Shown here: piece after piece, positions 14,234 to 63,840 of the stretch
Position numbering within the stretch: the first letter of the stretch is position 1
Layout of the letters: every line of letters starts with the position of its first letter
DNA from: Halichondria panicea
Taxonomy: Eukaryota; Porifera; Demospongiae; Suberitida; Halichondriidae
NCBI RefSeq assembly: GCF_963675165.1
Contig: NC_087388.1
Span: forward strand, 5,461,047-5,525,046
Length of the DNA stretch: 64,000 nucleotides
Reading direction: 5' to 3'
Notes under the pieces: model-generated
Told to the model about the DNA's origin: nothing
The model's input: only the letters and a program-made list of their open reading frames with translations
The model's database searches: none
Made by a program: the position numbers and the translations under genes

Positions 14234-17200
14234 ATGGCTATGTTAGTAACTCTCTTTGCCTTGTTTCTGCTGCAAGGGGCAGCTCAATCTCAATCGTTCT
14301 CCTTCCAAGACTCTACCAATGTTCCAGGACTGCAAGTGGACTCCAGTGGGAGAACATTCCTTGCTGCAGGCAACTACCTGTATAGACTTAATTTACAGCT
14401 AGTGCAAGAGGAGAGAATTGATCTAGGAGCTACTGTTATCAATAGAGGACTAGCCCTGAGCTCTACTGGGATGGTGGTGGTGTGTTTAGAGGATCTCTCT
14501 TGCTCTGTCTACAATGCAAGCAACCTCGGTGCTGGCCCGATCAGGAGTGTCAGTAATGCTATAGCCTCTGCAAATCCGAACTTTGGAGCAGCTATCATTA
14601 CGTCAGGAGACACCGTCTATACTGGAGCATCGACTGGTGCAGGAGAGAGAATGGTGCTGCAACAATTCGGAGAGGGGTTCAATAGATCTTCCGACAACAA
14701 TCGTAATTTATTCAATGGGGGTGAACTGATTTTTGGGGTTGGTGAATTCTCCAGACAATTCTATGGAGGATTTGTGAGTGGTAACTTTACCTACTATGTT
14801 GTCTCTGACTATCAACCTGCTGATGCACGAGCTATAAGACTGTTACGTATTTGCAACATGCCTGATTGTGGCGGCCCAAGTACCTGTGGAATGACTGCTT
14901 TGTATGAACTGGGATTCAATTGCGGTTCACGATCAATCAGTGGAGCTACTCGTGTGTGTGGAGTGTCATTAGTGGAGGACTTCAGTGGGATATCTGGACC
15001 TACTGCTGTGGTAACTATTTGTACACCTGGCTTCACTACTAGAAACTCTATTTGTGTGGTCAATATCACTGCTGTCAATGAAGCTATGGACACTAAATAT
15101 GACTCTTGTATTGTGTCACGCAGCACTGTTGGAGAAGACATTAATATAGCATGGAAAACAATTACAGATAACTGCAATGCTCTGCCTGAGGTTTGTAACT
15201 ATAGTAATTTAAATTGGTTTAGTATGGAGAACAAGTTCCTCAGATATCTGCACTGCCCTACCTCCGGTTTGTAAATAATTATAGACTTATATAATTACAG
15301 TAGAAAAAAACAAATCTCACAATTTGATCTTTCTCTAGGTAACTGGGGACAGATGTGATACACCCACTCCTATCGGTATTCTCGCCCCTGATGGTAGTAG
15401 GGACAGTATAGCACCGGTTCGTATTAACTTTGGAGGTACTGTCCCCACCACCTCAATAGCTGTGAAGATGGAGCAGTTCTCTTTTGTGTTTGTGGCAACT
15501 GATGATTCACGGATAAGAGGAGTAAGTGGTTGAGTCAGCTATATTGTGTATAATTATGAGTCTCCACAGTACGATGTCAGTGGTACATCTACCCTATTCT
15601 ACAATCAGCCAGTGACCTCTCTTGTACATCAGTTGTCATGGCAAGAAGGACTGAACTACATCACAGCAACCACTAATAACTCGGTGAGTACGTCTCACCT
15701 CCCATCCACTACCCCATCCCTCTGCATGTAGGTGTTCCAAGTACCCATAGAGGAGTGTTCCCAGCGTATAGACTGTACCAGTTGTACCAATAACCTCAAC
15801 CCGCTCTGTGGGTGGTGTGTGGTGGAGAACAAGTGCTCCCGTCAGACACAGTGTCAGAACTCCAGTCTCTCTAGTAGATGGACACAAGATAATACCAACT
15901 GTGTTACAGCCACTGTGGAGCCTATGCAACCTGTGCTTGACCCTGAGATTTCTGTTGGAGTGGTGAGGATTGTGTATTTGTTTCTGATAACATTCAACGA
16001 CACAGCTCACAGTGGCCCTGACCTCTCCTGGCTTGCCTTTCCTCCTGGCTGGGGAGACCTTCTCTTGTCATCTTGCAGACAGTGAAGGACGTTTCCCTCC
16101 CATTACAGTACCAGCTGTTGAGGTCACCCAGGGAACAGTTTATAACTGCAGTATTACAGGAATGGTACCTGACTATCATGGAGTGACTGCAACTATCAAC
16201 CTGGGATTTCAGAGCTCTCTATTCAATGAGCCATTTGATATCACCAACCAAGCGCTCACCATCTACAGGTGCTCAGCAGGAGAAAGGTATCACCTTAATA
16301 TTCAAATTCAATATTCATGGTACGTATATTTAGTTCCAGTATGGTCATGATTATCAACTCTCCAATGACTGCATGAAGTCCATTTTAATGATGAATAGTT
16401 AAGGCACCACTAAACAGCGAGACTATAATTATGTACATGCGAAATGTCGATGAATGCTATAATTATATGGAGATCTTTCTTTCTCACTGCACAGTTGTAA
16501 GGATTGCCTTGGGCTCGATAGTCCTTGTGGATGGTGTAACCTCAACAAGCAGTGCAGTGGAACATCAGCTCCTTGCAGGAATGTATCTCATTTCCTACAG
16601 GTGAGCTCAGTAACCATGGTTACCTGTGACTCTGTACACATCCTCTGTACAGGTGTCTGGAGGCAACAACTTCACTGCCGAGTGCCCCTTATTGGACACG
16701 CCCCCCTCTAGTGAGTACACTCAACCAATAAGGGTGGCCCAGGACCTTCGACTGACTACCAAGAACCTCATTTCACCTGTAAGTCATATGACATCCGTAC
16801 CTGTTTGTTTAATGGCTTCCCTCTATTAGACGGATGGCTTTGAGTACTATTGTGTTGTGAATGGAGTTAGTCTGATAGCTCAGTATGAGAACAAAAACTC
16901 CATTCTGTGTACAGTGGGCAGCGGGCAAGTGAGTGGAGACAATAACGTTCTTATGATCACTTGTTGTGTTTACTATCATCCTTAAGTGCTTATCTTAGTC
17001 ACTGGAATATCACATATAAGTATTTTCACTTTCTGCACAAGACAAATGATTTTACAATTGCTTGCCTTAAATAGTGATGATCTTGTACAGCTCACACTGC
17101 CTGCTGGTGTTGGCAGTTCCACTGTAGATGTCAAGGTGATGTGGTCAGGGAATGGCATCAACCACCTACTGAGCAGTATCATGCAACAGACCAATGGTAC

Positions 17201-20200
17201 ATGCATACACAGCTAATGCAGGTAACAGATGTTTCAGTATAGAGGCACCAGCACATGTACGTGCATGCAACATTTTTACTGCATGCGGAATGTTGTGCAA
17301 ACGAGTGGGAATGATTGACTATGATATATAGTTGCTAAAAAGTGGCCAAAAGTTCGAAGTATTGGTGCATGGTCAGTGGCGAATCCAAAGGGGGTTCTTT
17401 GGGTTCAATTGAACCCCCCTTTGAGAAAGAAGTGAGTGGGAGGCTCAAGCAACTAATTAGCAAGTTGTTCCTTTCTTACTAGCTTTCACATGCACTTCTC
17501 ACTTACCTTTAGTCCTTGTTAGTCCTGCGAAGCTTTATCTGTGCAGTTTCAGTGACTATGAAGGCTAAAAACTCTCCAGCGTAGTACATACAGACTGCTT
17601 ATGAAAGTGATGACCTTTTTTTTAGGAAAAAATTCGGTGTGTTAATGCACATGCTCACTGTTTCGAAGAAGTTACGACGTCTTTTTTTTAGGTAAAATGT
17701 AAAATTTACAATCCTTGACCCGCTCAGAGACCTGGAACCCCTCTTTCAAGATTCCTAGATCCTCCACTGAAGGTGTAGCCTCTTTTTTCCATCTTGCAGC
17801 TACTATAGTACTATAGCCAGCTAGCTTTCTGCATACCGTATACCTCACTTGCGCACGCGGAAACTGAGGCATAATTATTATGCTTACCACCCTCCCCCTA
17901 TACACACACACAGTGACTCTGTATGATTGTCGTGATTTGGCCAGTGGATGTTCAGAGTGCCTTGTGTCCATACTGGGATCAGAGTTCACGTGTGGGTGGT
18001 GTGTGATCAGGGAAAGCTGTGAGGTGTTGCAAGAATGCACCAATGATGTTTGGGTTACTGAGGGGAGAAATTGTCCTACCCCTTTCATCAACTCAATCTC
18101 TCCAGAATCTGGTAATTGTTATATTAAACCTGTATGCCATGACACTCCTACACCCACAGGACCAGTTGAGGGTGGTACAGCGATCACTGTGATGGGCACT
18201 GACCTTGGGGTGACCTTTGTTGACGTTCTGAACGCTACCCTTACATTAGGAGGTGTAGCCTGCACTCCCATCAATACTGACTATATACCAGGGAGGCAAT
18301 TTGTGTGTGTGACCAACCACTTTGGAATTACAGGCTTCAATGTCTTCACTATGGTCCTATATGGCAATATACACGTCAATGTAAACGCTGATTCCTTCAT
18401 TGCGTTGAATCCTATTGTTAGTAGCGTCAAGCCGACCTTTGGACCCATGGCCGGAGGTACCAAACTGACTGTGGGGGGTAAAGAGTTAGGAACTGGTAAC
18501 CTTGAGAACACTAGAGTCACTATAGAAATCAATGGAGGGCCAACCTATCCCTGCAGCATGATGTAAGTGCTATAATTATTAAAGAACATGCAGTAGACAA
18601 TGTTTAAACCTTTCCGTGCAGATCAGTCTTTTCTCAAGAGATTGAATGCACCGCTACGGCAGCAAACCTCACCTCCGCTGCAGAGGTGGTGGTTACTATT
18701 GATGCTGCTAGACTGACTTTCGGAGTGGTGTTCAGTTACCGTAACAATCCCAATGTAACTGCTGTGTTTCCTAGCAACACCATTCCCAGTGGAGGCATCA
18801 CACTGACCTTTACTGGACTAGACATGAACGTGGTACAACAGCCTGTGTTGGAGGTGTATAGAGGAGCGGGGTCTCCTCTGGTGAGCCAGCAATAATGTTT
18901 GTACATGATGTACTTACTCTCTCCCCCTCTTACAGAGAAGCTACTGCATTGTTGTGAACAGTACCGCAATCACATGCTGTACTCCTAGTCTAGGGACGAC
19001 CTCACTGACCCCATTGAACTATTCCCTGTTGTTTGATGATGCCCCACCCACTACACAAGCACGTCTCCCCATCATCGTCCAATCAGATCCCTTCAATTTT
19101 ACACTAGAGGGTTCTCAAGAGGTCACCAGTGGCACAGTGACCCTCATACGCATTGTGGTACGTCCTATAGCTAGTATACTGACGCTATATATACTGTTAC
19201 CGTGTGTGTATCCAGGGTGATAATCTCGACTCAGTGGAGACCAGTGAGATACGAGTGACCGTGGGAGGGGAGGAGTGTGTCAAGATACCCTCCAATAGTA
19301 GAGGTAGTGACATCATCTGCACTGTCCCCTTGGAGCCGCCAGGAGGGCAGGAACTAGCCATCATAAATGTGAGTAACTATCTAAAAATAACTGTTTGTCA
19401 CTGTCTCCTTCAGGTGACCATTGGGAGCAACATATCTCAAGTATTGGACCGTCAACTGACTTATTCGCTTCCTACCTTTCTTGGGCCAACAGTTCCTCTG
19501 GAGATCATCATTCCAGTTATTGTTGTTATCTTTGTATTGGTCGTGTGTTTACTGATGATTGTGATTGTCTGCTTATATCTGAACTCGAGGAGAAAGTTCA
19601 TGTCGATTGCTATGCACCAACAAATGGTAGAGCTTGTGGCTACTACTGGGTAAGTAACGCTATATAATTATATACCTTCTTATGTCGCTTTTACGGTTGT
19701 ATTAGGAAAACTCCGGAGGCAGTGGATGGAAATAATGCACTCGTTAGTAAGTTAGTATACATGTGTACAATTATAGTCTAGTTATATTCATTGACCTACA
19801 GAATCAGAGCTTGATGAAATTGCCAAGTCCATCCCAGACTCATTCAAAATACCAGCCTCCATATTGAAGCTCTCCAGTACTGCAATTGGACAAGGTAAAG
19901 AAAGATGTGCATTTCACTTAATTTATGGGATGTCACTATACAGGTGAATTTGGCGTTGTGTACAAGGGAATTCTGACAGACTGGAACAAAGTACCTATGC
20001 AGGGGGTGGCCGTGAAGACATTAAAAGGTGACATCAATTGAAAATATTTACCTTACATGTACATGTTACTGTATATAGGTTATATCAACCACTCGTTTTT
20101 CTGGTTCTCTTGCTAGGTTTTTGCTACCCCCTACATAAAAAGTACAATTTCTGGCCAACAGCTAATAATACAACACAGTCAACCAACGTTGCATTTCTGA

Positions 20201-23200
20201 TGAGCCATGCAGTTAATCATTGTTATACTCTATATATGCATGCAGGTCTGTTCTCGTTGTCGGATGTTCAGAGCATGGTGTGTGAGGTAAACAAGATGCA
20301 GGACTTTGATCATCCTCACGTCATGTCCCTGATTGGGGTGTGTCTCGATGCTGGCCCCGGGATTGCTATAGTGATGCCATATATGGCCAATGGGAGCCTT
20401 TTCGACTACCTCAAGAAAGAAAGGGATAATCTGGAGCTGGACGATGACTGTGAGATTGATCAGGTGTGTGTGTGTGTGTGTGTATTTTAGCAATTTTAAT
20501 TAGCACTATTATTTATAAACACACCGGCCCCAATTGCAAGGCATAACTACTTGAGTGTAGAAATTAATTTGTATGCATGCGTATATATAGGGACAGTACG
20601 GAGTGGTTTCAATAATATTGAAGATTAGAGCACCATGCACCAAAGGATTTTGATCATGCAGCGTTGTCCTTTTCATTCTCTGTATAGATTCTGGCAGTGA
20701 GGAAACTGCTACTAAAAATGTGCCATCAGATAGCACTGGGAATGGCCTACTTGGCCGAGCAGAAGTTTGTCCATCGAGACCTTGCAGCCAGAAACTGCAT
20801 GTGAGTGACTATGTGTAGTGAGAGACGTCAGTGTTAACAATAATCACATGTAAAGCTACAAAGATAATTACTGATTCATTGCGACGAATCTAACGTTACT
20901 ATTATCGTAGCAGTATCACAAATCAACAACTCATCCAACTCTTCATGAAAATTGACTTACGTGCATTGTTAGCGTGGTTTCATCTTGTACATTCCTATAG
21001 GCTGGACTCGGGAGGGGGTATCAGGGTGGGGGACTTTGGTCTGGCTGAGGACGTCTATGCTAGCGGCTACTTCAGACAGAACGATCGAGCCAATGTGAAG
21101 GTGCCCTACAAATGGATGGCCTTGGAGAGTCTCAACGATGCCATCTTCACAGAGAAAACTGATGTGGTCAGTCAGTGCATGGTAGACTAATAAGCACTCC
21201 AGGAAATTGTGAAATTTTCTGTGCATTTATTGGTATTATAGGTATAGACCTCCTGCATGTGGTGCTCAATTAATTACAAAGTTTACGACCAAATACGAGT
21301 GGACAAACATTTATAGCAAGACATATGCTCATTCAGTGGTCGTACGGTGTGACTGTGTGGGAGGTTTTCAATGGAGGACGGACTCCCTACCCTGCCGTGG
21401 ACCCACTGTCCCTCATCCAGCTGCTGGGAGAGGGGAGGAGACTAGAGAGACCTCTCACTGCAGCCTGTGCCACCGAGATGTGAGTGTATATACTCTTTGA
21501 GTTGTAGCATGCAGTAATTTGAGTACTGCATCACTGTGTGCAACTCCCCCCCTCCTAGCTCGGAGTTGGCTGTAATTGAAGCGGGGAAAAGTTGTCAATA
21601 CCATTTTAGTGTTGCATGCTCTCTTAATTGTGGTTCCACACTTTTGTTCTAACCGAGGCTACTGTATATGCATTACCTCCTCACCCAGTTCTGTGGTGAT
21701 GCGCAAGTGTTGGAGGGAGGACCCAGAGGAGAGGCCAACCTTCTTACAACTGTCCTCCATTGTGGAGAGGCTACTGGCATCCATCTCTGGCTACACTGAG
21801 CTCGGAATGGTGCTAGTGGATACCAGTAAAGAGGAGGAGGAGCTCAGTAAGTGTATAAATTATATGGACTTAAATTTGTTAGCCATGCAGCTTTTATTTT
21901 GTTTGCCGTAGGCTATAATTATTGTATGTATACAGTAGAACCTCGATTATCCGGACACCTTGGTTCCCGAGGCAGGCCGGATAACTGAATATACGAATAG
22001 ATAAACCACGCCTTGATCCACCCACTTTATTGATAAACAACAGTGCCACCTGGTTGTCTGCGCATGCGCAGAAGATAAACAGACTTGTCTCCATAGTAAC
22101 AGCTGCAATGCGCATGTGCATTTCAGGGACAAGCCCATTTCTGAATTATTATATCTGATTAAAAAGAAACTTCCAAGCCGGATAATGGAGGTTCCGGATA
22201 ATGGAGGGCCGGATAATCGAGGTTCTGTTCTACTGTATTTTGAAAGGAAGTGTATATATACCGACTAGAAAAACATTTGCAATGTGAAAAATTGCTAGGA
22301 TTGCATGGCCAGGGGAACCACAAAAAAACGTGGAAACAAGAAATCCGACGAGAGCATATATATAACTCCAATCCGTTACAACGTCAATCACATGTATACT
22401 GGTTGTTTTCCCAGCCAATAATTATAAATATAAATACGAAATTTTTACTGGTGGGGTGGTGATGACCAATCCTTTTATTATACATCCATTTTGGAATGTG
22501 CAGGCATATAATCATGATGATTTGTGATGAATTGATGTTCCTAATACATGCAGTGTTGAGCACAGGTACACAGTCCATCCATGCATAGTAACATGCACGG
22601 ACCGTATACTGGTAACCTGCATGGAATGATGTGTGGATGGAAGCTGGTAGATGGATCTGGAACACAGTCTATATACTATGTATTGTACATGTTCATGACG
22701 TTGTAACGGATTGGAGTTATATATATGCTCTCGTCGGATTTCTTGTTTCCACGCTTTTTTGTGGTTCCCCTGGCCAATCCTAGCAATTTTTCACATTGCA
22801 AATGTTTTTCTAGTCGGATTCCCTTTCTTTTTCAATACAAGTGGAACGTCAAGAGGCAGTATAGAAGTTCAAGAAGAGAAGACAGGACTAATTAGATATC
22901 TTCTCGAATATCTCTGGACTATATATAATAATTATAGTAATATTTGATATGTTGAATTTGTGAATCAGTATTAAATGACAGCCATTTTAAGAGCATGATA
23001 TATAGCCAGTGCATATAGCATGCTTGTCAGAGAAAGGGAGCTAGAGCTGAACAGTGTGAAGAAAAGCAACACCTCCAGGCTATGGAAATGCACTGATTTT
23101 AGGCGCATGGTTTCTTAGCCACGCCTATCTATTATTTGGCCACAACACAATTGCTGAGTCATTAAAGATGGTGGAATTGTCTAGGTAAGAGAAATAGAGA

Positions 23201-27555: not shown

Positions 27556-30500
27556 ATGGCTATGTTAGATCTAGTGGCTTTCTTTGCTTTGTTTCTGCTG
27601 CAAGGAGCAGCTTATTCTCAATCACCCTCCTTTGATTTTAAGATTAGAACTGACTATCTCCCAGGACTGCAAGTGGACTCCACTGGGAGAACATTCCTTG
27701 CTGCAGACAACTACCTGTATAGACTGAATGCTCAGCTAATACAAGAGGAGAGAGTTGATCTAGGATCTTATGTCATTGACCAAGGACTGGCCCTGAGCTC
27801 TACTGGGATGTTGGTGGTGTGTTTAGAGGATCTCTCTTGCTCTGTCTACAATGCAAGCAATTTCAGTACTGGTCCCATCAGGAATATCAGTAATGCTATA
27901 GGGGGAGATCTTAGATTTGGAGCAGCTATCATTACGTCAGGAGACACTTTCTACACTGGAGCAATAACTGGTGTGGGACAGAGAATGGTACTGCAACAAT
28001 TTGGAGAGGGATTCAATAGATCGTCAAACAGCAATCTATCAGACGAGTATAATGAACTGGTTTTTGAGATTAGTTCCTTTGCACGAAACTTTTATGCATA
28101 TGGTGGTTTTGTGAGTGGTGGATTTGCCTATTATATTATCGTCGACTATCGACCTGCTAATGCACGAGCTATAAGACTGCTACGTGTTTGCAACATGCCT
28201 GATTGTGGAGGCCCAAGTACCTGTGGAGTGACTGGTTTGTATGAACTGGGAATCAATTGTGGCTTTCAAACAATCACTGGAGATACTCATGTGTGTGCAG
28301 TGTCATTAGTGGAGGACTTCAGTGGGATATCTGGACCCACTGCTGTGGTAACTGTTTGCTCCAGCAGTACTAACTCTATTTGTGTGGTCAATATCACTGC
28401 TGTCAATGAAGCTATGGACGCTAAATATGACTCTTGTATTGTGTCACGGACTGTTGGAGAAGAAATTGGTTTAGCATGGAGAACAAGCTCAGATAACTGT
28501 GATACCCTGCCGCAGCCTCAGGTACGTTTGTATATGATTATAACATACAGGGTTTTGCAAAATCTTTGCAATATCCCAAAAAAGCGTTTTGCGTTGAGCG
28601 TTCCTTATAAGGTTATCTGTGGTCAACCATAAAGTTGTAGATCTTAGTCAGCATGTCAACAATGCACTATTCTACAAACAGTTGATGGATCAACTTGAAG
28701 ATTCCCAGCAACACTTTGATAAGACAGTCCAAGCAGCTCTGTCTGATGCACTATTCTCCATCTAATAATACCGCTTTTTTCACAAGAAAAAGCCATTTTG
28801 TTTTTGAATTTTGCTTCCTAAGCAGACTTGGCATTTCACCACAATGTGTTTATGACACCACAATGTGTAAACATTAGATATCCATATAAGGAACGCTCTA
28901 CACCCTCTATTTCAAAGATTCTGCAAAACCCTGTACTGGTCTTCAACAAATCATTTATTTTCAGATACCTGTGGACAGATGTAACACACCCAGTCCAGTC
29001 GGTCTTCTCATTCCAAATGGTGGTATTGACATAATAGCACCAGTTCGTATCAACTTTGGAGCCAGCCCTATTCCTGATGCTTCAGTAGCTGTAAAAGTGG
29101 AGCAGTTTTCCTTTGTGTTTGTGGCAACTTTTGATTCGAGGATAAGAGGAATAAGAGGAGTAAGTGCGTAATTGTGTATAATTATGACATTGCTTGTCTC
29201 CACAGTACGATGTCAGTGGTACATTGACCCTGGGAACTGATAGCTCATTCTACAATTTTCCAGTGACCTCTAGGGTATTATATTTGTCATGGCATGAGGG
29301 ACTGAACTACATCACAGCAGCCACTGCAGACACTGTAAGTTTATAATGCTTGTATATGTATGTGTTCTACCCTATCCATTTCACCTCCCCCTCTGAAGGT
29401 GTACCAAGTACCCATAGAGGAGTGTTCCCAGCATATAGACTGTACCAGTTGTACCAATGACCTCAACCCGCTGTGTGGGTGGTGTGTGGTGGAGAACAAG
29501 TGCTCCCGTCAGACGCAGTGTCAGAACTCTAGTCTCATCAAGAGATGGACACAGGAAAATACCAACTGTTTTACTACAACTGTGGATCCTATGCGACTTG
29601 TCCTCGACCCTACAATTCTTGCTAATGTGGTAAGGTATATATGCATTAATGTGACACAGGTCATACAAACTGATCCAACAGTTCACGGTGATCTTGCCTC
29701 ACCTCCTGCATGGAGAAAATATATCCTGTCATCTGGCCGACAGTGAAGGACGTTTCTCACCCATCATAGTACCAGCTGTTGAGATTATCCCAGGAATAGT
29801 GTTCAGTTGTGATATTGAAGGACTGGTACCTGACTACCCTGGAGTGACTGCAACCATCAACCTGGGATTTCAGAGCTCTCTGTTCAATGAGCCATTTAAC
29901 GTTACCAACCAAGCACTCACAATCTACAATTGCTCAGCAGGGAAAAGGTATAGGTACCTCAACCATATTCATGACCTGCTGATCACACTATGAATGTGCA
30001 GCTGTAAGGATTGCCTTAGGCCCAATAGTCCGTGTGGATGGTGTAACCTCAACAAGCAGTGTAGTGGAACAGCAACTCTGTGCAAGAATACGTCTCACTT
30101 CCTACAGGTGATAGCTTGATGACCCCTAGCCTGACTCTCTAATGCCTATACCCCTCTATACAGGTGTCTATATCTACAGACTTCAGAACCCTATGCCCCC
30201 TGCTAGATACGACCCCCTTTGGGGGGCACACTCTACCAGTGAGGGTAGTCCAGGACCTTCGACTGACCACTAGGAACCTGATACCACCAGTAAGTCAACA
30301 TTAACTCTGTACCCTGACCCTTCCATGGCTTCTCTATAGACGGATGGCTTCGAGTATTTGTGTATTGTGAATGGAGTTAGCCTGGCAGCTCAGTATGAGA
30401 ATGAGACCTCTATCCTGTGCAATGTGGGCAGTGGAGACGTAAGTGCTAACACTGTAATACAATACAATGTAATGTAATGTAAACTGCACAAACAGTTTCA

Positions 30501-33500
30501 CAATGACCATTAAATGCTAATTGTGATTTAATTAGTGCTGCATTCTAGTTATCACATTACCATACATGACACAGCTCAACCTGCCTACTGGTAGTGGTAG
30601 CTCTTCTGTGGTTGCTACGGTGATATGGTTCGGGAATGGCATCATCCACCCACTCAGCAGTGTCACACAACAGACTGACAGTACGTACACCATCACAGTA
30701 ACTACAAAAGTTGGACTAACATTTATACACAACCTCTGTTTACCATATGCCCCTCCCCCTCCCCCCAACACACACAATGACATAAAGTTACGTTGTTTGA
30801 TTGTCGTAACTTGGGCAGTGGATGTTCAGAGTGCTTAGCATCCAGACTGGGGTCAAAGTTCACGTGTGGGTGGTGTAGCCTTAGCGACAGCTGTGAGGTG
30901 TTGCAAGAATGCACCAATGATGTTTTTGTTACTGAGGGGAGAAATTGTCCTTCCCCTTTCATCAAATCAATCTCTCCAGAATCTGGTAATCATTATAATT
31001 TTACCTACTATATGCCATGATACTTCCTACACCCACAGGACCAGTTGATGGTGGTACAGCAATCACTGTGATGGGCACTGACCTCGGAGTGACCTTTGCT
31101 GACATTCTGAACGCCACCCTTACATTAGGAGGTGTGGCCTGTACTATCATCAACACCGACTATATACCAGGGAGGCAGTTTGTGTGTGTGACCAACAACT
31201 TTGGAAGTACAGGCAGCAATGTCTTCACTATGGTCCTGTATGGCAATATAGACGTCAATGTAAACGCTGATCCTTTCATTGCGTTGAATCCCTTTGTTAG
31301 TAGCGTCAAACCGACCTTTGGACCCGTGGCAGGGGGTACCAAACTGACTGTGAGGGGTACTGCACTAAGAGTGGGTAACCATGAGAACACTAGAGTCACT
31401 CTGGTCAGTGGAGGGTTAATCTACACCTGCAACGTATTGTAAGTGGCAGTATACGTCTGGAAATGTTGAAACCTTTCCTTGCAGATCAATCTTTTCTCAA
31501 GAGATTGAATGCACCACTACAGCAGCAAACCTCACCTCCGCTGCAGGGGTGGTAGTTACTATTGATGCTGCTAGACTGGACTTTGGAGTGTTCTTCACTT
31601 ACAGTAACAACCCCAATGTAACTGCTGTGCGTCCTAGCAACACCATTCCCAGTGGAGGCATCACACTGACCTTTACTGGAGTGTACTTGGACGTGGTACA
31701 ACAGCCTGTGTTGGAGATCTACCAGCCCATGGAGGAGGATCCTCTGGTAAGCCAGCAACTATAATTATGTCTGTATTATTTACTCTCCCCTACAGAGAAG
31801 CAACTGCAGTGTTGTGGACAATACAACCATCACATGCTTGACTCCTAGTCTGCTAATAACCTCACTGACCCCATTGGACTATGCCCTACTGTTTGATGAT
31901 GTCCCACCTATCACACAAGCACGTTTTCCCATCAGCGTCCAATTAGATCCCTCCAATTTCCGGCTGGAGGGTTCTCAAAAGGTCCCTAATGGCACAGAGA
32001 CGCTCATACGCATTGTGGTATGTAATATTAGCTAGTAAACCGACCCTATTAATTGTTATTGTGTGTGTATCCAGGGTGATAATCTCGACTCAGTGGAGAC
32101 CAGTGAGATACGAGTGACAGTGGGAGGGGAGGAGTGTGTCAAGACACCCAGTAGCGTAAGAGGGAGTGAATTCATCTGTACTGCCCCCTTGGAGCCGCCA
32201 GGAGGGGAAAACCCAGCCAACATAAATGTGTATATAACTATAATTATACGTAACTGTGTCACTGTTCACTTCAGGTAACCGTTGGAAGCAACATCGCTCA
32301 AAAATTGGACCGGCAACTGACTTATACATTTCCTGAGGCAACGGTTTTTGGGCCAACAGTTCCTCTGCAGATCATCATTCCAGTTATTGTCATCATCTTT
32401 ATAATTGTCGTGTGTGTACTGACGATTGCTATTGTCTGCTTGTATCTGAACTCGAGGAGAAAGTCAGTACCAATTTATATGCATCAGCATGAGCAAAGGA
32501 TAGAGCTTACGGCTACTGGGTAAGTAATGATAATATTATATACTGTTCAATTTGCAAATAATTTGTTACAGGAAAACTCATGAGGTAGTCGATGGTAATA
32601 CTACACTCGTTAGTAAGTTTTCTTTTCTACACACACATGTATAGTCCCTGTTACATGCAACAAATTATATTCAGAATCAGAACTTGTTGAGATTGCTGAG
32701 TCCATCCCAGACTCATTCAAAATAGCTGCCTCAAAATTGAAGCTCTCCAGTACTGCAATAGGACAAGGTAAAGAAAGATGTGCAAATAATTTGATTTTGG
32801 GATGTGACTATACAGGTGAATTTGGCGTTGTGTACAAGGGTGTTCTGACAGACTGGAACAAAGTACCTATGCAGGGGGTGGCCGTGAAGACATTAAAAGG
32901 TTATAATTATCATTATTGTTGTGAGATGAATATTACACAATGAAACCTTTTGAACACAGAAACTATAAACTCACGATTATTTCGCGATCATTCCCTCTAT
33001 AGACATGTTAACCTAAATTCCGGTCTGCAGTCAGTTATACATTTTCTGAGCCCTAGAGATTCATTTTTCTGCAATTGTAACACACAACATTTCATTTCTG
33101 ATGAGTTAGTTCTTCATTATTTATACAGGTCTGTTCTCATTGTCGGATGTTCAGAGCATGGTGTGTGAGGTGAACAAGATGCAGGACTTTGACCATCCTC
33201 ACGTCATGTCCCTAATTGGAGTGTGTCTCGATGCTGGCCCCGGTGTTGCCATAGTGATGCCATATATGGCCAATGGCAGCCTTATTAGCTACCTCAAAAA
33301 AGAAAGGAGCAGCCTTGAGTTGGACGATGACTGTGACATAGATCAGGTGTGTGTGGTGTAGGGTGCATACGAGTAGTAAATAGCTCAGTATCTATGACGA
33401 CTACCTTTTGGTTTAGAGCATGTATAAGTAATACTATTTATTGCTTTTTAATAAGTGCTGACATCAGCGTTTTACATTGAAATTGCACAGGAAGCGACTC

Positions 33501-36216
33501 ATCACCAACTGTGCAGATATTTTTCCATATCGCACACCCGGAAGTATTATTGCACACTTGTTATTGCACACTAGGAAGTGATTCTTATTTGGAATAAAAC
33601 GTTTTCAGCAGTGAGAGAACAAGAAAAACATAGTTTACACACTTATAATCATGCATTGCAATGTTTATCAGTCTCTTTTCTTGTTTTCTGATGCTCTGTA
33701 TCACTTCTGTGCTCTTTTTGCAGTGAAGCTGAGGGTCAGGAGGTTGTCAGTGTTCATATTTAATGCATCAAACAGGCATCAGTGTTGGGAGTGGGTGCTT
33801 TGAGCGGAGTATTGCACATGTAGAAGTGTACTGCACCACCATATAAGCCTGTTCAGGCTTGTATAAAGTCGTTTTGGCTTCAAAAACGGTTGTCACACTT
33901 TTCTTCAGTTATAGCGGTGCATGTTTCCTCTTCTGATACACTGGAGCATGATAGAAAGCAAGCACATGCTGTTTATCCTTCAGAACTATCCATTTTCAAA
34001 ACGGGTTGCTGGTTGTCAACGTTTTTCTTGTCTTTTTTTCTTGTCTGTTCTCTACAAAATCTTTAAGTAGCCTTCTGCAAGCTCTCTTGGTGTTCTAGAG
34101 TATTATTTCTTTGTCTTTCTAGCTGTTTTCTTTCTCTTAAACTCGTCTTCAACTGGGAGAACTCAATTTTGTTGCTACGCATTCTTCTGGTTGATAAAGC
34201 AACCGCATGTTGCGCATGCGCAGATTCAACCTGCATTTTGGTTGCCAAGCAATAAATGCATTATCCCATGGATACTGATGATTATCACTCGTCCGTGCCT
34301 AGTAACTGTCACTCGTGCCTTGCAGGCACTCGTGCAGTTACTGCACAGACTCGTGATAATCCTCAGTATCCATAGGATAATATCATAATAATTATGGTAT
34401 TAGTGTGAGCATTGTGTGGGTGTCTCAACAGAAAGGTATGTGGGGCTGCATGATTACTGTGATCCATGTGTATAGAGAGATGCATGCTACATTCCCATCA
34501 GCTATACTGGGTCAAAATATATTTCTTACCTAGCTTGACCACTTGACCAGCCTATTTTACTGAAACAACATGCATCAGCCTTATGGCCTGACCATATTCC
34601 ACAACAAATCACGTTCACTATAGCTATGCATGCATATATATAGTGCAAGGTGTACAAAATGATAGTTAAAACTGGCGCATGCAGAATGCAGGGAAAGAAT
34701 GACTATATAGCTATAATTATCTAGAAAGAATTTTTTCAATTTGTGTCAGCAGCGTGATCGATTGTGGGGATAATACTGACTTGGAGTATATAAAATTATG
34801 ATGAGCTTTTCCAGAACTTAGTCAAAAATCAGAGCACCAATTAATAATTTGTAAAGAAGTGGTTGCCATTGATACAGATTCTGGAAGTGAGGAAACTGCT
34901 ACTAAAGATGTGTCGTCAGATAGCACTGGGAATGGCCTACTTGGCTGAACAGAAGTTTGTCCATCGCGACCTTGCAGCCAGAAACTGCATGTGAGTGAAC
35001 AATTGACAGTGTGCACGAAAGAAATCATGACACTAAGTATAATCATGCAAAGTTCATGTTTTTATAGCCACGGTAACGTTATACTATAGTTGGAGCATTC
35101 TTCCTTGCATGCGACAAAAATTATATCCAATGGTATGCATCGATATTGTAAAAATATCACTAGCATACTAGCTGGTTAGCATTTTACATAATTGTTTCCA
35201 TGAGGTTTTATCTTGACATATAATACATTCAGGCTGGACTCGGGAGGGGGTATCAGGGTGGGGGACTTTGGTTTGGCTGAAGACGTCTATGCTAGCGGCT
35301 ACTTCAGACAGAACGACAGAGCCAATGTGAAGCTGCCCTACAAATGGATGGCCATGGAGAGTCTCAACGATGCCATATTCACAGAAAAAACTGATGTGGT
35401 GAGTCAGTGCATGATCACAAGCTCTATAACTCAGTAATAGCTTTATTTTCGTGAACACGCTCTATCTAACCTCAACCCCTAATTTGTGTCTGAAATACAT
35501 TTTCCTTTCATAATCATTGTTACTTGTCGTCCATGTGCCCATGCAGTGGTCGTATGGTGTGACTGTGTGGGAAGTCTTCAATGGAGGACGGACCCCCTAC
35601 CCTGCTGTGGACCCACACTCCCTCATCCAGCTGCTGGGAGAGGGGCGGAGACTAGAGAAACCTCTCAACGCAGCCTGTTCCGCCGAAATGTGAGTGTACA
35701 CTCTCTGAGTTGAGTATCGTAGCAGTTGCATTGAGCTAGTTGTTGTGTTGGGTAGACTGAGATTTGGAATTACCATTTTGTTCCAACTGACTGTACATCC
35801 CTCTACACTCACTCAGTTCTGAAGTGATGCGTCAGTGCTGGAGGGAGGACCCAGAGGAGAGACCAACCTTCTCACAACTGTCCTCCACTGTGGACAAGTT
35901 ACTGACATCCATTGCTGGCTACACTGAGCTCGGTATGGTGCTACTGAACACAGTTCAAGAGGTGGAGCAGCTCAGTAAGTGCATAATTAAAAGATAGTAT
36001 GCTACTATAAATAGCAGCTCTTAATGAATACTTACTTAGTGTAGTATACTAAGACATGCTAAAAATCATTATTCATTCCATGCTTTTACTGCAGAATGTG
36101 ACAATGTACCTTCACCTACTGAAGACGCTAATCGTTATGTCGATGGTCCACCAGGTCACCCTCTAGCATTCAAAAACAGAATGTACGAAGAAGAATTTAC
36201 TGCAACAGACGATTAA
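27556..36216 (+). CDS. RTK gene C (type 1), plexin-like ectodomain and MET-like kinase, intact reference copy
   Basis: Exons: 27556-28521, 28965-29159, 29206-29334, 29399-29629, 29682-29947, 30002-30107, 30164-30289, 30340-30438, 30575-30680, 30788-30985, 31039-31438, 31485-31746, 31796-32017, 32075-32227, 32275-32519, 32572-32612, 32675-32767, 32816-32899, 33129-33346, 34878-34990, 35233-35398, 35547-35689, 35817-35974, 36095-36216. Joined, they give 1613 residues without a stop. Order: signal peptide 1-20; Sema about 20-430 (short for this domain, usually near 500); PSI1 about 438-485 (CTSC, CGWC); IPT1-like 508-590; PSI2 594-630 (CKDC, CGWC); IPT2-like 632-740; PSI3 745-800 (CSEC, CGWC, NCPSPFI); four IPT repeats about 805-1165 ([43 protein letters not shown]); membrane span about 1186-1211, then NSRRKS. 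Kinase about 1270-1560: [21 protein letters not shown] (alpha-C Glu), [39 protein letters not shown] and LPYKWMA...ES are strongly MET-like. The tail ends [11 protein letters not shown]. Substrates and ligand unknown. Confidence 0.88.
28548..28933. mobile_element. 386-bp TA-flanked MITE in intron 1 of gene C
   Basis: CAGGGTTTTGCAAAATCTTTG at the left mirrors CAAAGATTCTGCAAAACCCTG at the right (one mismatch). TA is duplicated at both ends. Intron 1 of A and E keeps the empty site (CATACTGGTCTA in E). This is a Tc1/mariner-type non-autonomous element. Confidence 0.85.
33437..34388. mobile_element. About 0.95-kb insertion in intron 19 of gene C
   Basis: Gene E has continuous sequence here (AAGTAATACTATATAATTATGG near 61066-61090). 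In C it is split by about 950 bp. The 3' part (34262-34381) folds back: TTATCCCATGGATACTGATG pairs with CAGTATCCATAGGATAA, around CACTCGT/ACTCGTG repeats. No frame of note inside. Exact ends and superfamily unclear. Confidence 0.6.
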
Positions 36217-37850: not shown

Positions 37851-38058
37851 GGCACTGACCTCGGAGTGACCTTTGCTGACATTCTGAACGCAATCCCATT
37901 AGGAGGTGTGGCCTGCACTCCTATCAACACCGACTGTATATACCTAGACTCGCAAGCCGTCACTGTTGCAGGCGAACTGTTCGCCTGCAACAGTGACGGC
38001 TTGCGAGTCTAGTATATACCAGGGAGGCAATTTGTGTGTGTGACCAACAACTTTGGAA
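37851..38058 (+). pseudogene. RTK IPT3 exon fragment, interrupted by a palindromic insertion
   Basis: GGCACTGACCTCGGAGTGAC to ACCAACAACTTTGGAA equals part of exon 11 of the RTKs ([13 protein letters not shown]...[12 protein letters not shown]). It has a 3-nt deletion and a 67-bp element plus a 9-bp duplication inserted at 37945. No other RTK exon adjoins it; IP3R exon sequence follows within ten bases. Confidence 0.85.
37945..38011. mobile_element. 67-bp near-perfect palindromic mini-element with 9-bp target duplication
   Basis: Two 31-bp perfectly complementary arms (starting TAGACTCGCAAGCCGTCACT) surround a 5-base loop ACTGT. GTATATACC occurs at 37936-37944 and 38012-38020. Intact RTK copies show the empty site (ACTATATACCAGGGAGGC). 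Confidence 0.93.
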
Positions 38059-40104
38059 CGAACAGGGGAGCAAGGTCAACGACTTTTTCAAAAGGACCAA
38101 CAAGCTCCACAAAGAAATGGAGTGTCAGAAAGACCTGAGAAGTATTGTAGGCGGATTACGAGTACCTATAATTATGTTGTAGTCTGAGTGGCCTGTGCAT
38201 GTGATACAGAGCAAAACAAAGTTAGTTCAAATTGAACCACTGTTATCAAGTTATAGCTGTTTAAATTAAGAGTTGAGTTTATGATTGTACAGTGTATCGC
38301 GCTTGCACTGTCTAGGTACATGTATAGGTGTAGCATCTTCGAACTTTATAGTTCTATAAAATTGAATCAATATATACGTGTGTGTATAGAAACTTTTCTA
38401 GGCCCCGATAAATTACTCTTTTTTTCTAAATGTGCTTATATTAATCCCCCAAAAAGTTGACATAACAATTAACACAAAATTAAAACGTGCAACTGACACA
38501 CGACATAGTTAGTGTTATCTATTTTTTGCCCAGAAATTTCGTTATGCAAAATTTAATGTAATGATCTTTACCAAAATGAACATTGTGATGCCCAATTTCT
38601 ATTGAGACCCCTGTTATGCTAAAATTTAATTATTCCAAGTATAATTTATCAGGGCCTAACTGATAAATTACTCCTCCTTCTTTATCGGCTCCCCTCTCCC
38701 TCAGATCGAACGGTCCAATATAAGATAGCTCGTCACATGGGTCTATGTCCAGTATCTCGTTCTACCTTGCCTTCTGTCTCAACATGATGGTGGTCTTTCT
38801 CTACCCCTTCAACAAGGGCTCCAATTACATCAGTGAGTACTGCACAAGTGCTTCTGTTAGCATAATTATAGCACTGTTATAGTACACACTGTATGACTGA
38901 ATAGATCTACTTGTACTTCATTTCCCTTAGTTAGCATTTACTCCGAGTACTTTAAAATGTATAATTATACATTGTATAATAATTGTATCATAGCCACCAT
39001 GTACCCCGATGGCTATGAACTTAATTTGTGCAAGAGCTGATCGAGCTACTTTTATCAAAATAATTATTGGTCCTCATAATTATAAACGTGCATTTATTCT
39101 TACTGGTGAAGTATTTATGCCCCTCCGATAATTCCAGACTCTATGGATTTGAAGACGTTCATGTTGCTATGGATGGTGTTGATTGCTTCTATACTACTAC
39201 TAATCTATGGAGACAGGAAACACATCAAGCGCTACTCTGTGTCTTTAGCGGCACTGGCTGTTATCAGGAGTCTGGTTACCTTGGGGATGCAGCCGACACT
39301 ATTCCTGCTCGGATTCTTACAGGTATACTCCTATCTTAGCGGCCCCTCACTCAAGTATTTTAATAAAGGAAAATCAAAATTTGAGGTTTTACCAATTCAA
39401 GATTATGATAGTTTTTGCATAATGCGGACGGTATACTGGTAGCGTGTGTTTTGATTGTAGCTGTGGACGAATCTCTGTTTAATTTTGAGGCTTATAGAAC
39501 ATGTTAAGGTGAACACCTTTTATCCAATAATCTTACCTCCCCCCCCCCCACACACACACAGCTTGTCAACAAAGGCGTGTTCATAGTGAGTCTATTATCA
39601 AATCGTGGCATCCTTCGTAAGCTGTGGACTGTTAGACCACGACGGGCCACAAAACATTATTTTCAGTTTATTCGTGAGCTGAGCTCTGACCTCTTCTTCA
39701 GTCCCCACCTCCCTTATCATTGGATGCAGTTCACATTCTGTTTCCTGGGGTTCAGTATACACGAGTTCTTCTACTGGGTACTGGTGAGTGTGTGTGGAGT
39801 GTGGTGTGTGGGTGTGGTGTGGAGTGGGCGTGCTTGCGTGTGTTGTATGGTGTGTGGGTAGGTAATTGAATGTGTTTACTAGTGTAGTGGGGTAATTATG
39901 TAGCTTCTGTTTACATTCAGTCTAGAAATTGATTTTGAATCCATGCAGCTGTCACACACAATAGCCTTGAAACCAATTACATGTGCTTCAACCTGTGTTC
40001 ACTGTTTGTCTAAACTTAACCAGAGTTGAACACTATGGACAGTCTTCACTGCATGTACATTCATATGAATATAGCTACCATTAGAATCCACGATTGTACA
40101 CACA

Positions 40105-43188: not shown

Positions 43189-46100
43189 ATGGCTATGTTA
43201 GTAACTCTCTTTGCCTTGTTTCTGCTGCAAGGAGCAGCTCATTCTCAACCATTCTCCTTCCAAGACTCTACCAATCTCCCAGGACTGCAAGTGGACTCCA
43301 CTGGAAGAACATTCCTTGCTGCAGACAACTACCTGTATAGACTGAATGCTCAGCTAATACAAGAGGAGAGAGTTGATCTAGGAGCTACTGTTATCAATAG
43401 AGGACTGGCCCTGAGCTCTACTGGGATGTTGGTGGTGTGTTTAGAGGATCTCTCTTGCTCTGTCTACAATGCAAGCAACCTCAGTGCTGGTCCTATCAAG
43501 AGTGTCAATAATGCTATAGCCTCAGCAGATCCTGACTTTGGACCAGCTGTCTTTACGTCAGGAGACACTTTCTACACTGGAGCATCGACTGGTGCAGGAT
43601 TAGGAGAGAGAATGGTACTGCAACAATTTGGAGAGGGGTTCAATAGATCGTCCGCCAACAATCCATTAAGCGCACGCAATGAACTGGTTTTTGAGATTAG
43701 TGAATTTTCACGACAATTCTACGGAGGATTTGTGAGTGGTAACTTTACCTACTATGTTGTCTCTGACTACCTACCTAGAATTGATCGAGCTATAAGACTA
43801 TTACGTGTTTGCAACATGCCTGATTGTGGAGGTCCAAGTACCTGTGGAGTGACTGCTTTGTATGAACTGGGGTTCGATTGTGGAGAACGAACAATTGGTG
43901 CAGTTACTCGTGTGTGTGGAGTGTCATTAGTGGAGGTATTCAGTGGGATATCTGGACCCACTGCTGTGGTAACTATTTGTACACCTGGCTTCACTATTAG
44001 AAACTCTCTTTGTCTGGTCAATATCACTGCTGTAAATGAAGCCATGGACACTAAATATGACTCTTGTATTGTGTCACGCACTGTTGGAGAAGAAATTGAT
44101 TTAGCATGGATAAGATCCCCAGATAACTGCAATTCCATTACTCAGGTTTGTAACTTTGCAGTGTTATTGGCATTGATCACGCGTTTCAGACAGGACCCAA
44201 TATATGTTACTTTCCGAATGCACGTGATGCTAGGCTTCGTTCTGTACTCTCTCTCTCTTTTAGTTATTGCCCAGCACGAGTGCAACATAACTTGTTGCCC
44301 AGTGAGTGGGCAGATCAAAGCAATCCAGTGCTCTGTATAGTTACATCACTACCATAGCAACCATATAATATTGCACTGCATTATAATTATTATGGCATAA
44401 TGCACTGGGATTATAATTATGCACTTGCACTGTGTGTAAATGTAGTAGATTTTGAGAAAGAAATCTACTTTTGGGACTTATACCCCACCATCCCATTAGT
44501 TGCATGTGGGAACAAAACCTAAGAATTTACTATGAAATTCAACAAAACTTTCAAATTCCACTCAAAACACATGTCTTATTAGGGAAAAAATTGACTTATC
44601 AGAAGAATTTGACGTCATTGGGCAACAACTAATACACAATGCCCGAGGGCATTATGTCATCCAGTGCAATATAATTATGGCATGTTGCACGAGGGTGCCT
44701 GCCCAATGATGTTAAACTCTTTTGATTGGTCAAGTTTTTCCTTATAAATTGTAATAAAAACATGTGTTTTTTAGTGAAGTAAATTCTTAGGTTTCTTCCC
44801 ATGCACAACTAGTTGAAAAAGTAGTAGTCGGAGGGGTGGGGCATAAGTCCCAAAAGCAGATTTCTTTCATGAAATCTGAATTTACACACAGTGTAAATGT
44901 CATGCATATATATAATTCCAGTGCAATATGCCATAATTATAATGGTTTCTATGGTAGTAATGCAACATGCCATAAATAAGCCCTGGGTTGCTTTGATCTG
45001 CCCATTCACTGGGCAACAAGGACTCTTGCATGCTATTAATAACAAATCACAATTCGATCATTCTCTAGCTGGTAATTGGGGACACATGTGACACATCCAC
45101 TCCCATCGGTATTCGCATCGCTAACAATATAGCACCACTTCGTATTGACTTTGGAGGTACTGTTCCCACCGCCTCAATAGCTGTGAAGGTAGAGCAGTTT
45201 TCCTTTGTGTTTGTGGCAAGTGATGATATGAGGATAAGAGGAGTAAGTGGTTGAGTCAACTATGTACATGTAATGAGTAGTTGCATCCTGCATGTCCACA
45301 GTACGATGTCAGTGGTACATCGACCCTGAGCACTGATAGCTCATTCTACAATCAGCCAGTGACCTCTGATGTATATCATTTGTCATGGCAGGAGGGACTG
45401 AACTACATCACAGCAGCCACTAATAACTCCGTGAGTTAATGCTTGCATGTTCTACCCTATCCAGTATCCTCACCCTCTCTGTACTAGGTGTTCCAAGTAC
45501 CCATAGAGGAGTGTTCCCAGCGTAGAGACTGTACCAGTTGTACCAATGACCTTAACCCACTGTGTGGATGGTGTGTGGTAGAGAATAAGTGCTCTCGTCA
45601 GACGCAGTGTCAGAACTCCGGTCTCTCCAGTCAATGGACACAGGACAATGCCAACTGTTTTACTGCTGCTACTGTGGAGCCTATGCAACTTGTCCTCGAC
45701 CAAGCAATTTTTCCTACAGTGGTAAAAATCATGTATAGTTGTGTTTGATAGCATTCAGTGACTCCTACAGCTCACAGTGACCCTGACCTCCCCCGGTCTG
45801 CCTGACCTCCTGCCTGGAGAGAGCTTCTCCTGTCATTTGGCCGACAGTGAAGGACGTTTCTCACCCATCATAGTATCAGCTGTTGAGGTCACCTCAGGAA
45901 TAGTGTTCCGTTGTGATATTCAAGGACTGGTACCTGACTATCCTGGAGTGACTGCAACCATCAACCTGGGCTTTCAGAGCTCTCTGTTCAATGTGCCATT
46001 TGACATTACCAACCAAGCACTCACAATCTACAAGTGCTCAGCAGGAGAAAGGTATTACACATATCAGGAACTTCCCATATTCAAAACACCCTAATAAGTA

Positions 46101-49100
46101 CATGATCAACTCCCCCTTGAAGGAAATTTATACAAATCATTTATGTTTCCTAATAGAAATTGTGGGTTATAGCTGCTTAAAACTGGCTTTCTTTAGCTGT
46201 AAGGATTGCCTCGGGCCCAACAGTCCATGTGGATGGTGTAACCTCAACAAGCAGTGCAGTGGAATATCAGCTCCTTGCAGGAATGCATCTCACTTCCTAC
46301 AGGTGAGCTCAGTGACGTGTGATGACCTGTATATAAGTCCATCTGTACAGGTGTCTGCAGGCAACGACTTCACTGCCGAGTGCCCCTTGTTGGACACTCC
46401 CCCTTCTGGTGGGTACATTCTTCCAGTAAGGGTGGCCCAGGACCTCCGACTAACTACCAGGAACCTTATCACCTCCGTAAGTCACATGACTTCCGTATCT
46501 CATTTTTATGGCTTCCCTCTTCATTAGACGGATGGCTTCGAGTACTTGTGTGTTGTGAATGGAGTTAGCCTGACAGCTCAGTACGAGAACGAAAACTCCA
46601 TTCTGTGTACAGTGGGCAGTGGACAAGTGAGTGGGGATAATAATGTTCTTATAGTGTATGCCTAGTTGTGTTTACTATCTCATCCCTAAGTACTTATCTT
46701 GGTCACTGGAATATCACATATAAGTATTTTCAACACAAGACAATACAATTGCTTGCCTTAAATAGTGATGATATTGTATGCAGCTCACACTACCTGCTGG
46801 TGTTGGCAGTTCCACCGTAGATGTCAAGGTGATGTGGTCAGGGAATGGCATCAACCACCTACTGAGCAGTATCATGCAACAGACCAATGGTATACATACG
46901 CAGCTATATATAGTAATTACACACATTGACACATGCAGCCTCTGTTAATAAAAGCTCCGCGTACGCTGATGCCTCGGTATAGAGGCATCACGTGCAACTT
47001 TTTCCGCCTCTTTTCTCCCTCTTATATACAGCTACGTACTAATAGCTAGCATTATTACAGAGCTACCTACTAGGTAGTATGGCTAAGTTATATCAACAGA
47101 TTATCCACTAGTCTGAAGAGACTGCAATGGCCTTCAAAGTAAGCAAAAATTAATCTAGCTATAACTCGACGAAGCTTATTTTGCAAATCCACAAATAGAA
47201 ATGTTATATACTATAGTGAGCAGTTGTAGCTAGCAGCCTAGACAGACAGACACACACACACACATGCACTACTCGCTTGGGCATGCGACAACTGAAACAT
47301 AATTATTATGCTTACCCCACCTCCCCCTATACACACAAAGTGACGCTGTATGATTGTCGTGATTTGGGCAGTGGATGTTCAGAGTGCCTTGCGTCCACAT
47401 TGGGGTCAGAGTTCACATGTGGGTGGTGTGCGATTAGAGAAAGCTGTGAGGTATTACAAGAATGCACCAATGATGTTTTCATTACTGAGGGGAGAAATTG
47501 TCCTACCCCTTTCATCAACTCAATCTTTCCAGAATCTGGTAATCATTACAACCTGTATATTGTATGTATAATGATGTGTCATACACACCACTCCACCCAT
47601 AGGACCAGTTGAGGGTGGTACTGCAATCACTGTGAAGGGGACTGACCTTGGGGTGACCTTTGCCGACATTCTGAACGCCACCCTTACATTAGGAGGTGTG
47701 GCCTGCACTCCCATCAACACTGACTATATACCAGGGAGGCAGTTTATGTGTGTCACCAACAATTTTGGAAGTACAGGCAGCAATATCTTCACTATGGTCC
47801 TCTATGGCAATAGAGACGTCAATGTAAACGCTGCTCCTTTCATTACATTGAATTCCTTTGTTAGTAGCGTCAAACCGACCTTTGGACCCGTGGCAGGGGG
47901 TACCAAACTGACTGTGGGGGGTAAAGAGTTAGGAACTGGTAACCTTGAGAACACTAGAGTCACTATAGAAATCAATGGAGGGCCAACCTATCCCTGCAGC
48001 ATGATGTAAGTGGCTATAATTATTAAATAACATGCAGTAGACAATGTTTAAACCTTTCCGTGCAGATCAGTCTTTTCTCAAGAGATTGAATGTACCACTA
48101 CGGCAGCAAACCTCATCTCCGATGCAGAGGTGGTGGTCAATATTGATAATGCTAGACTGAATTTCGGAGTGGTGTTCAGTTACCGTAACAATCCCAATGT
48201 AACTACCGTGTTTCCTAGCAACACCATTCCCAGTGGAGGCATCACACTGACCTTTACTGGACTAGACATGAACGTGGTACAACAGCCTGTGTTGGAGGTG
48301 TATAGAGGAGCGGGGTCTCCTCTGGTGAGCCAGCAATAATGTTTGTACATGATGTACTTACTCTCTCCCCCTATTACAGAGAAGCTACTGCATTGTTGTG
48401 AACAGTACCGCAATCACATGCTCTACTCCTAGTCTAGGGACGACCTCACTGACCCCATTGAACTATTCCCTGTTGTTTGATGATGCCCCACCCACTACAC
48501 AAGCACATCTCCCCATCACCGTCCAATCAGATCCCTTCAATTTTACACTAGAGGGTTCTCAAGAGGTCACCAGTGGCACAGTGACCCTCATACGCATTGT
48601 GGTACGTCCTATAGCTAGTATACTGACGCTATATATACTGTTACCGTGTTGTGTATCCAGGGTGATAATCTCGACTCAGTGGAGACCAGTGAGATACGAG
48701 TGACCGTGGGAGGGGAGGAGTGTGTCAAGATACCCTCCAATAGTAGAGGTAGTGACATCATCTGCACTGTCCCCTTGGAGCCGCCAGGAGGGCAGGAACT
48801 AGCCATCATAAATGTGAGTAACTATCTAAAAATAACTGTTTGTCACTGTCTCCTTCAGGTGACCATTGGGAGCAACATATCTCAAGTATTGGACCGTCAA
48901 CTGACTTATCCGTTGCCTGAGGTAATGGGTGAGCCAACAGTTCTTCTGGAGATAATCATTCCAGTTATTGTCTTTATCTTTGTATTGGTCGTGTGTTTAC
49001 TGATGATTGTGATTGTCTGCTTATATCTGAACTCAAGGAGAAAGTCCACGTCGATTGCTATGCACCAACAAATGGTGGAGCTTGTGGCTACTACTGGGTA

Positions 49101-63278: not shown

Positions 63279-63584
63279 GCACAGACCTAGCAATGGGCAA
63301 GGGAATATTGATGTGTTTACTGATAGTAGCATGATGCATAAGTGACATTCCAAGGATTGTTATGACAGTACACATCACATGCAGCCTGTCATAATAATGC
63401 ATACTTTGTATTTATGTACTGACAATTCGGTGTACAGCTTACGTTTTCTGCTGTATAGGGTCGGCTGCTCTGGTTGTCATGGTAACCTGGACGCATCAAC
63501 CACCCACTGAGCAACATATTGAAACAAATTTCAAGTATCATTTCTTTCTGTCAACAATCATTGTTATACTCTATATGCATGCAG

Positions 63585-63802: not shown

Positions 63803-63840
<38 letters not shown>
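63803..63840 (+). repeat. (GT)n at the splice donor of copy F exon 19
   Basis: About 19 GT units, the longest of this set, directly from the donor. Confidence 0.85.

Follow-up and report, generated by a model that had tools for sequence, protein, structure and literature searches.

A tandem array of predicted plexin-headed receptor tyrosine kinases, with dozens of genomic copies, in the sponge Halichondria panicea

A stretch of 64,000 nucleotides (64 kb) from the genome of the sponge Halichondria panicea, here termed the window, contains five genes in tandem (g1 to g5), all on the plus strand, each of which is predicted to join a plexin-type ectodomain to a receptor tyrosine kinase. The initial annotation had described one such gene; beyond it, we find all five in the window and dozens of copies in the genome, with kin of the kinase lying beside other types of extracellular domain. 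We consider it probable that these genes belong to a family of sponge receptors whose many heads all feed into a single shared kinase output. A combination of plexin ectodomain and tyrosine kinase was initially thought to lack a standard description, but the available part of Junqueira Alves et al. (2019; PMC6374515) names this layout Met-LP, in Lophotrochozoa and Echinodermata. Nor are MET-like kinases in sponges new as such, since a passing statement in the accessible text of PMC6485061 mentions clear Met orthologues in sponges and ctenophores. Searches of open-access papers turned up no account of either a sponge Met-LP or an array of this kind; what is new is the tandem array and its dozens of genomic copies in a sponge, the layout itself having already been named.

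Results

One gene encodes a plexin-like ectodomain and a tyrosine kinase

Splicing g3 by hand (27556..36216, plus strand, as are all features below) yielded 24 exons and 1613 codons with a single terminal stop, no stop inside and GT-AG borders at 23 of 23 introns. Exons 1-3 (27556..29334) encode a signal peptide and a Sema-like head (residues 1-430), followed by PSI1 in exon 4 (29399..29629; best PSI stretch at residues 439-487), IPT1 in exon 5 (29682..29947), PSI2 in exon 6 (30002..30107), IPT2 in exons 7-9 (30164..30680), PSI3 in exon 10 (30788..30985) and IPT3 to IPT6 in exons 11-14 (31039..32227). By splicing and hydropathy, exon 15 (32275..32519) holds the end of IPT6, the membrane span and the start of the juxtamembrane region, to which exon 16 (32572..32612) also belongs. 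Exons 17-23 (32675..35974) encode the tyrosine kinase, with its Gly loop, [12 protein letters not shown] and DFG intact, and exon 24 (36095..36216) a tail in which motif reading finds YVDG and YEEE. Hydropathy identifies the signal peptide and one span at about residues 1186-1209, after which Pfam places the intracellular kinase.

Pfam reports three PSI stretches (1.5e-15), four TIG stretches (2.2e-22) and a PK_Tyr_Ser-Thr domain (1.3e-80) in the g3 protein, in which the plexin GAP (PF08337) is absent at E-values up to 10. When compared to PDB chains using phmmer, residues 220-1050 align with human Plexin-A2 (2.1e-63, the best PDB match) and residues 745-1141 with MET (1.1e-30); PSI3 to IPT6 alone, a query of 435 residues, matches Plexin-A2 at 6.5e-37 and MET at 1.1e-30, the MET alignment covering residues 5-400 and including PSI3 and the four TIG stretches. 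PSI2 is found both by Pfam and in the Plexin-A2 alignment. The two IPTs after PSI1 and PSI2 are missed by Pfam and come from the Plexin-A2 alignment. Splicing, Pfam and phmmer thus agree with the initial annotation, which had proposed a single gene with three PSI repeats, IPT-like units between them, four further IPTs and a MET-like kinase in place of the plexin GAP. From this combined evidence, we predict that g3 is a single gene with a plexin-like ectodomain and a MET/AXL-like kinase, encoding a cell-surface receptor. That two adjacent genes, one plexin-like and one a kinase, were mistakenly read as one is extremely improbable, because the introns that span the junction (introns 14-17) measure only 47, 52, 62 and 48 bases and exon 15 contains the IPT6 end together with the span and juxtamembrane start; the identical join also recurs in all five window copies.

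The Sema domain that had also been proposed for the head is harder to see. Neither Pfam (three copies scanned, g3, g1 and g2, with g3 at E-values up to 10), nor a PDB search with a three-row profile of head residues 1-438 (no significant match), nor a PDB search with 236 residues of the head's C-terminal half identified one, and an AlphaFold model of exon 1 built from five rows was poor and uninformative (pLDDT 37). The Plexin-A2 alignment, however, extends from PSI1 into the head of g3, and because of this extension and the position of the head, a diverged Sema is its best reading. Against the ectodomain of Met-LP (Sema, three PSI, six IPT), that of g3 shows three PSI and four TIG by Pfam, two IPTs by alignment and a head in which no Sema is detected by itself.

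Two introns of g3 contain inverted repeats. An insert of about 390 bases in intron 1 (28546-28935), where the corresponding intron of g5 measures 59 bases, is flanked by 28-nt terminal inverted repeats (93%) and looks like a transposon remnant. Intron 19 (33347-34877; 1531 bases, compared to 585 in g5) contains a 39-nt inverted repeat.

Five copies of the gene lie in tandem

To model the other window copies, the exon borders of g3 were projected onto each of them, taking stop-free exons in g3 phases within 40 bases of the projected border. The resulting models are g1 (1425..8997; the 24-exon plan of g3, with one of 23 introns requiring a GC donor), g2 (14234..21846; exons 1-23), g4 (43189..51283; exons 1-23) and g5 (55567..62911; 24 exons, near-identical to g3 from exon 7 onward in pairwise comparison). 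No counterpart of exon 24 was found in modelling g2 (after 21846) and g4 (after 51283). All five copies are open over 1563-1613 codons in models that were picked for openness. Since four more copies of its plan lie in the same window, g3 does not represent a chance arrangement.

Pfam finds three PSI repeats each in g3, g1 and g2, a layout that departs from the Sema, one PSI and four IPTs of MET and RON, and reports neither Ig nor FN3 in these three copies. The furin motif RX[KR]R was found in none of the five window ectodomains. Additional pieces of the family are scattered between and around the genes: a genome-wide kinase search identified exon-19 copies at the start of the window (2..181), with no TIG of its own in reach, and 3' of g5 (63584..63805), with no head of its own, and a window search recovered a stray IPT3-like fragment 3' of g3 (37851..38060).

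Kin of the kinase adjoin several types of head

To survey the family genome-wide, the assembly (131.5 Mb in 39 contigs, with the window on contig C12) was searched for the kinase, yielding at least 173 exon matches (1189 candidates, of which 123 were scored). Among the matches listed, 55 exon-19 places were taken for a survey of heads, among them 40 close copies with at least 72% identity (minus one copy on contig C1 at 72%) and 14 more distant copies. A TIG match lies no more than 6.5 kb upstream on the same strand of 33 of the 40 close copies. For two of these (5461003 and 5524627), the nearest TIG belongs to a neighbour, and each of the two seems to be a headless kinase exon, leaving 31; a further three (L064, L065 and L024) are plexin-type by tblastn. 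The plexin-type count takes in none of the other four close copies, C12:5437351, C12:5563274, C4:3071051 and C5:5967359. Accordingly, a plexin-type ectodomain is found beside 34 of the 40 close kinase copies among the matches listed.

Upstream of the 14 more distant copies, no TIG match was seen. Five distant copies were examined for other domains, and three of them adjoin Sushi, FN3 plus Sushi, or SRCR, these heads being assigned by upstream, same-strand position rather than by spliced models. The copy on C6 (L042) has FN3 (9.6e-8) and Sushi (5e-8) upstream on the same strand, and Sushi (7.5e-10) lies ahead of the first of two C1 copies at one locus (L043), the second having no Pfam match upstream. 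Upstream of the C5 copy (L062, C5:2361501-2370500), SRCR is found in four pieces at 2e-8 or better, making this locus perhaps an SRCR-headed receptor kinase, a candidate by position. Another C1 copy (L063) has no confident domain upstream (fn3 at 0.031). Among the kin kinases, the pieces aligned by tblastn break off close to the residues where the exons of g3 end. A single kinase cassette thus seems, by these positions, to bear several kinds of head, and because Sushi, FN3 and SRCR domains adjoin kin kinases, the survey suggests that heads have been exchanged in the family.

Separate plexin GAP exons occur at two sites on C12 and Sema domains at four places in the genome, and it follows that semaphorin-like ligands may exist in this sponge. 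At the locus of the sponge's own plexin (L041), RING/TRAF-like frames were seen by eye on the opposite strand (5699-9979), in the place expected to hold the Sema exons of that plexin. Two stretches of C12, 5258680-5261907 (L022) and 5306320-5309547 (L023), are 99.8% identical over 3228 bases and represent either a recent segmental duplication or an assembly duplicate. A different kinase family, which groups with DDR1 at 100/97, is also clustered, on C10 at 1.70-1.73 Mb and 1.91-1.94 Mb (L006, L008, L014, L015, L028, L033 and L034). As for the sponge origin of the genome, seven short stretches at intron-split silicatein matches were read: in six, the cathepsin cysteine is replaced by serine (CGASYAF or CGSSYAF), the signature of demosponge silicateins, whereas L078 reads CGSCWAF, and the best matches in a single exon (L066-L070) belong to the cathepsin type.

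The kinase belongs to a clade with MET/RON, TAM and RYK

The Gly loop, VAVK, HRD and DFG are intact in all five window copies, and by these motifs the g3-type kinase is predicted to be catalytically competent. Its PDB scores tie among MER (1.2e-64), MET (1.6e-62), AXL (1.1e-61), RON (6.8e-61) and RET (1.8e-60); an EGFR chain tops the list, but it consists of two kinase copies at 1.8e-43 each. The kinase carries [12 protein letters not shown], as do MET and RON. The stretch [11 protein letters not shown] is found in MER as well and is therefore not specific to MET.

The MET and RON receptors have a furin site and a bidentate YVxV docking tail, and the TAM receptors (AXL, MER and TYRO3) have an ectodomain of Ig and FN3 domains. 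The sponge receptors resemble MET/RON in that PSI3 to IPT6 aligns with the PSI and IPTs of MET and the kinase falls within the same larger clade, whereas they differ in the layout of three PSI and six IPTs, in the absence of RX[KR]R and in the tail, where the tyrosines of g3 lie in YTEL, YVDG and YEEE and the YVxV pair is absent. Kinase scores are shared with TAM, unlike the plexin-type ectodomain. Plexins share the ectodomain layout but not the cytoplasmic part, their GAP being replaced by the kinase. When set against Met-LP by its description, the one span, the tyrosine kinase, the lack of a plexin GAP and, if the head is a Sema, the order of the ectodomain are alike; the sponge host, the dozens of copies, the putative Sema beyond the reach of Pfam and the kin kinases beside other heads are not.

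To place the kinase, we built a tree of 42 rows; as a rough check on its reference kinases, it recovered the expected groupings of MET with RON, TAM, ALK with ROS1, and KIT with VEGFR2. The sponge family groups with MET/RON, TAM and RYK at 100/99, and within this clade no sister is fixed. The best tree joins the family to RYK (84/70), and without RYK it joins TAM (86/65); the family with TAM (p-AU 0.188) and the family with MET/RON (p-AU 0.245, and 0.245 again without RYK) are not rejected. The AU test rejects a union of the plexin-headed copies with MET/RON that leaves their sponge kin outside (p-AU 1e-54; 5e-8 without RYK). As to descent of the kinase from MET in particular, the trees decide for none of MET/RON, TAM and RYK, and a plain MET orthologue is borne out neither by the trees nor by the AU tests. 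The corresponding ectodomain tree (PSI3 to IPT5, with human plexins A1, A2 and A4, MET and the sponge's own plexin) did not resolve, the cross-group identity being 27-33% and long branches meeting.

The order within the sponge family differs between the two kinase trees. In the 42-row tree, the C1 kin with Sushi branch first and the remainder group together at 91/88; without RYK, the kin with other heads come out as a clade (88/93) within the plexin-headed copies, and a plexin-headed clade is not rejected (p 0.152). Sushi as the ancestral head, which the C1-first order had raised, was dropped after the tree without RYK gave another order.

Both origins initially proposed for the gene, an ancestral state and a sponge-specific fusion, stay in play given the result for the whole family with MET/RON. 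Tentatively, the first animals may have had a plexin-headed kinase from which MET and RON descend by loss of two PSI-IPT modules, the sponge family keeping the full head and some of its copies later swapping it. This shared ancestry is consistent with the AU result for the family with MET/RON, with the alignment of PSI3-IPT6 to MET and with the nesting of other-headed kin among plexin-headed copies in one tree. Set against it are the first-branching C1 Sushi kin in the other tree and the equal standing of TAM and RYK as sisters, and any case built on domain architecture loses force if heads are exchanged. Also set against it, the available part of PMC6374515 regards Met-LP as polyphyletic and lists neither Met nor Met-LP for the sponge Amphimedon, which is given semaphorins and six plexins, the intracellular part being short in four of these. 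The same work dates Met to the ancestor of bilaterians and assigns Met-LP to two of their lineages.

The kinase is constrained and the ectodomain is looser

We compared dN/dS across ten pairs among g1-g5, omitting pairs without any change in a given region. The ratio ranges from 0 to 0.17 in the kinase, 0.09 to 0.49 in the span and juxtamembrane region, 0.21 to 0.86 in the PSI and IPT parts (with the top value in IPT5-6), 0.54 to 0.65 in the Sema-like exon 1 and 0.37 to 0.88 in exons 2-3, and exceeds 1 over a whole region in no pair. Judged by these ratios, the kinase is under purifying selection and the entire ectodomain is looser, the head being barely set apart, as exon 1 overlaps the rest.

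Exon 1 was additionally sampled across the genome from 18 stretches placed by guess, 13 of which matched and seven of which provided full exons; with the five window copies, this gave 12 sequences, which do not count as independent, L049 matching g1 at 99.9% identity, and one of which, L053, was cut short at its end. Overall piN/piS was 0.63, with 24-codon windows ranging from 0.24 to 1.12 and three reaching about 1. Windows with length changes had both high and low values, and the proposal that the indel loops of the head are its fast-evolving parts was dropped. This evidence falls short of positive selection, because no region has dN/dS above 1, exon 1 overlaps the remaining ectodomain, the indel windows are not those with the highest piN/piS, and introns in the 5' part diverge more than exons in pair comparisons.

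Some of the copies are mosaic in their similarity. Between g3 and g5, exons 1-6 differ by 6-19% and exons 7-23 are about 98-100% alike, and the introns from intron 5 on are mostly 96-100% alike, with intron 19 at 90.5% and of unequal sizes. A similar but less clean step occurs near intron 11 between g2 and g4 (exons 12 and 15 at 96 and 92%, intron 16 at 83%), and g1 and g3 display no clear step. In two of the three compared pairs, the alignments thus indicate that the 3' part is homogenised and the heads stay different.

Discussion

In the receptor family that we favor, a protein ligand would bind the Sema-like end and ligand-bound receptors would cluster, allowing the clustered kinases to phosphorylate each other and the tail tyrosines, which would then serve for docking. 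Many different heads would in this way lead to one shared tyrosine-kinase output. The kinase itself may be an old cassette of the MET/TAM/RYK clade, and recombination within introns close to the juxtamembrane region may have swapped its outer part in this lineage. Many variable heads on one output would, at a guess, suit recognition of other cells or microbes.

A more specific proposal, that the genes form a diversified sponge locus for self/non-self or microbe recognition, we regard as rather unlikely. The dozens of copies, many of them in tandem, fit such a role, as do the conserved kinase beneath a looser ectodomain, the length changes in the head and, for two of the three pairs, a similarity that differs between 5' and 3' parts in mosaic fashion; moreover, the available part of PMC8242945 describes a Halichondria plexin-group receptor and a Sema gene that go up after LPS. 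These LPS-responsive genes may, however, be other than plexin-headed kinases, and dN/dS is below 1 in every region compared. Combining this role with the shared ancestry considered above gives a still bolder and quite doubtful picture: a recognition locus with dozens of exchangeable, variable Sema-like heads and one kinase output, its cassette also taking Sushi, FN3 and SRCR heads, and descended from a first-animal plexin-kinase that predates the loss of two PSI-IPT modules by MET. Mostly decaying copies with little function are very improbable: the loose IPT and kinase exon fragments, the failure to find an exon 24 in either g2 or g4 and the GC donor required in g1 would fit decay, but all five window copies are modelled open and, weighing more than models picked for openness, kinase dN/dS is at most 0.17 in ten pairs. 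On the same two grounds, we hold a chance or decayed copy unlikely for g3.

Returning to the receptor family with many heads and one kinase output, a sponge family of the Met-LP layout would either bring the join of plexin and kinase nearer the animal root or represent a third independent case. A kinase that retains its catalytic part while its neighbouring heads change would illustrate domain exchange at work, and if the heads vary between individuals, the family would be a concrete candidate for sponge self/non-self recognition.
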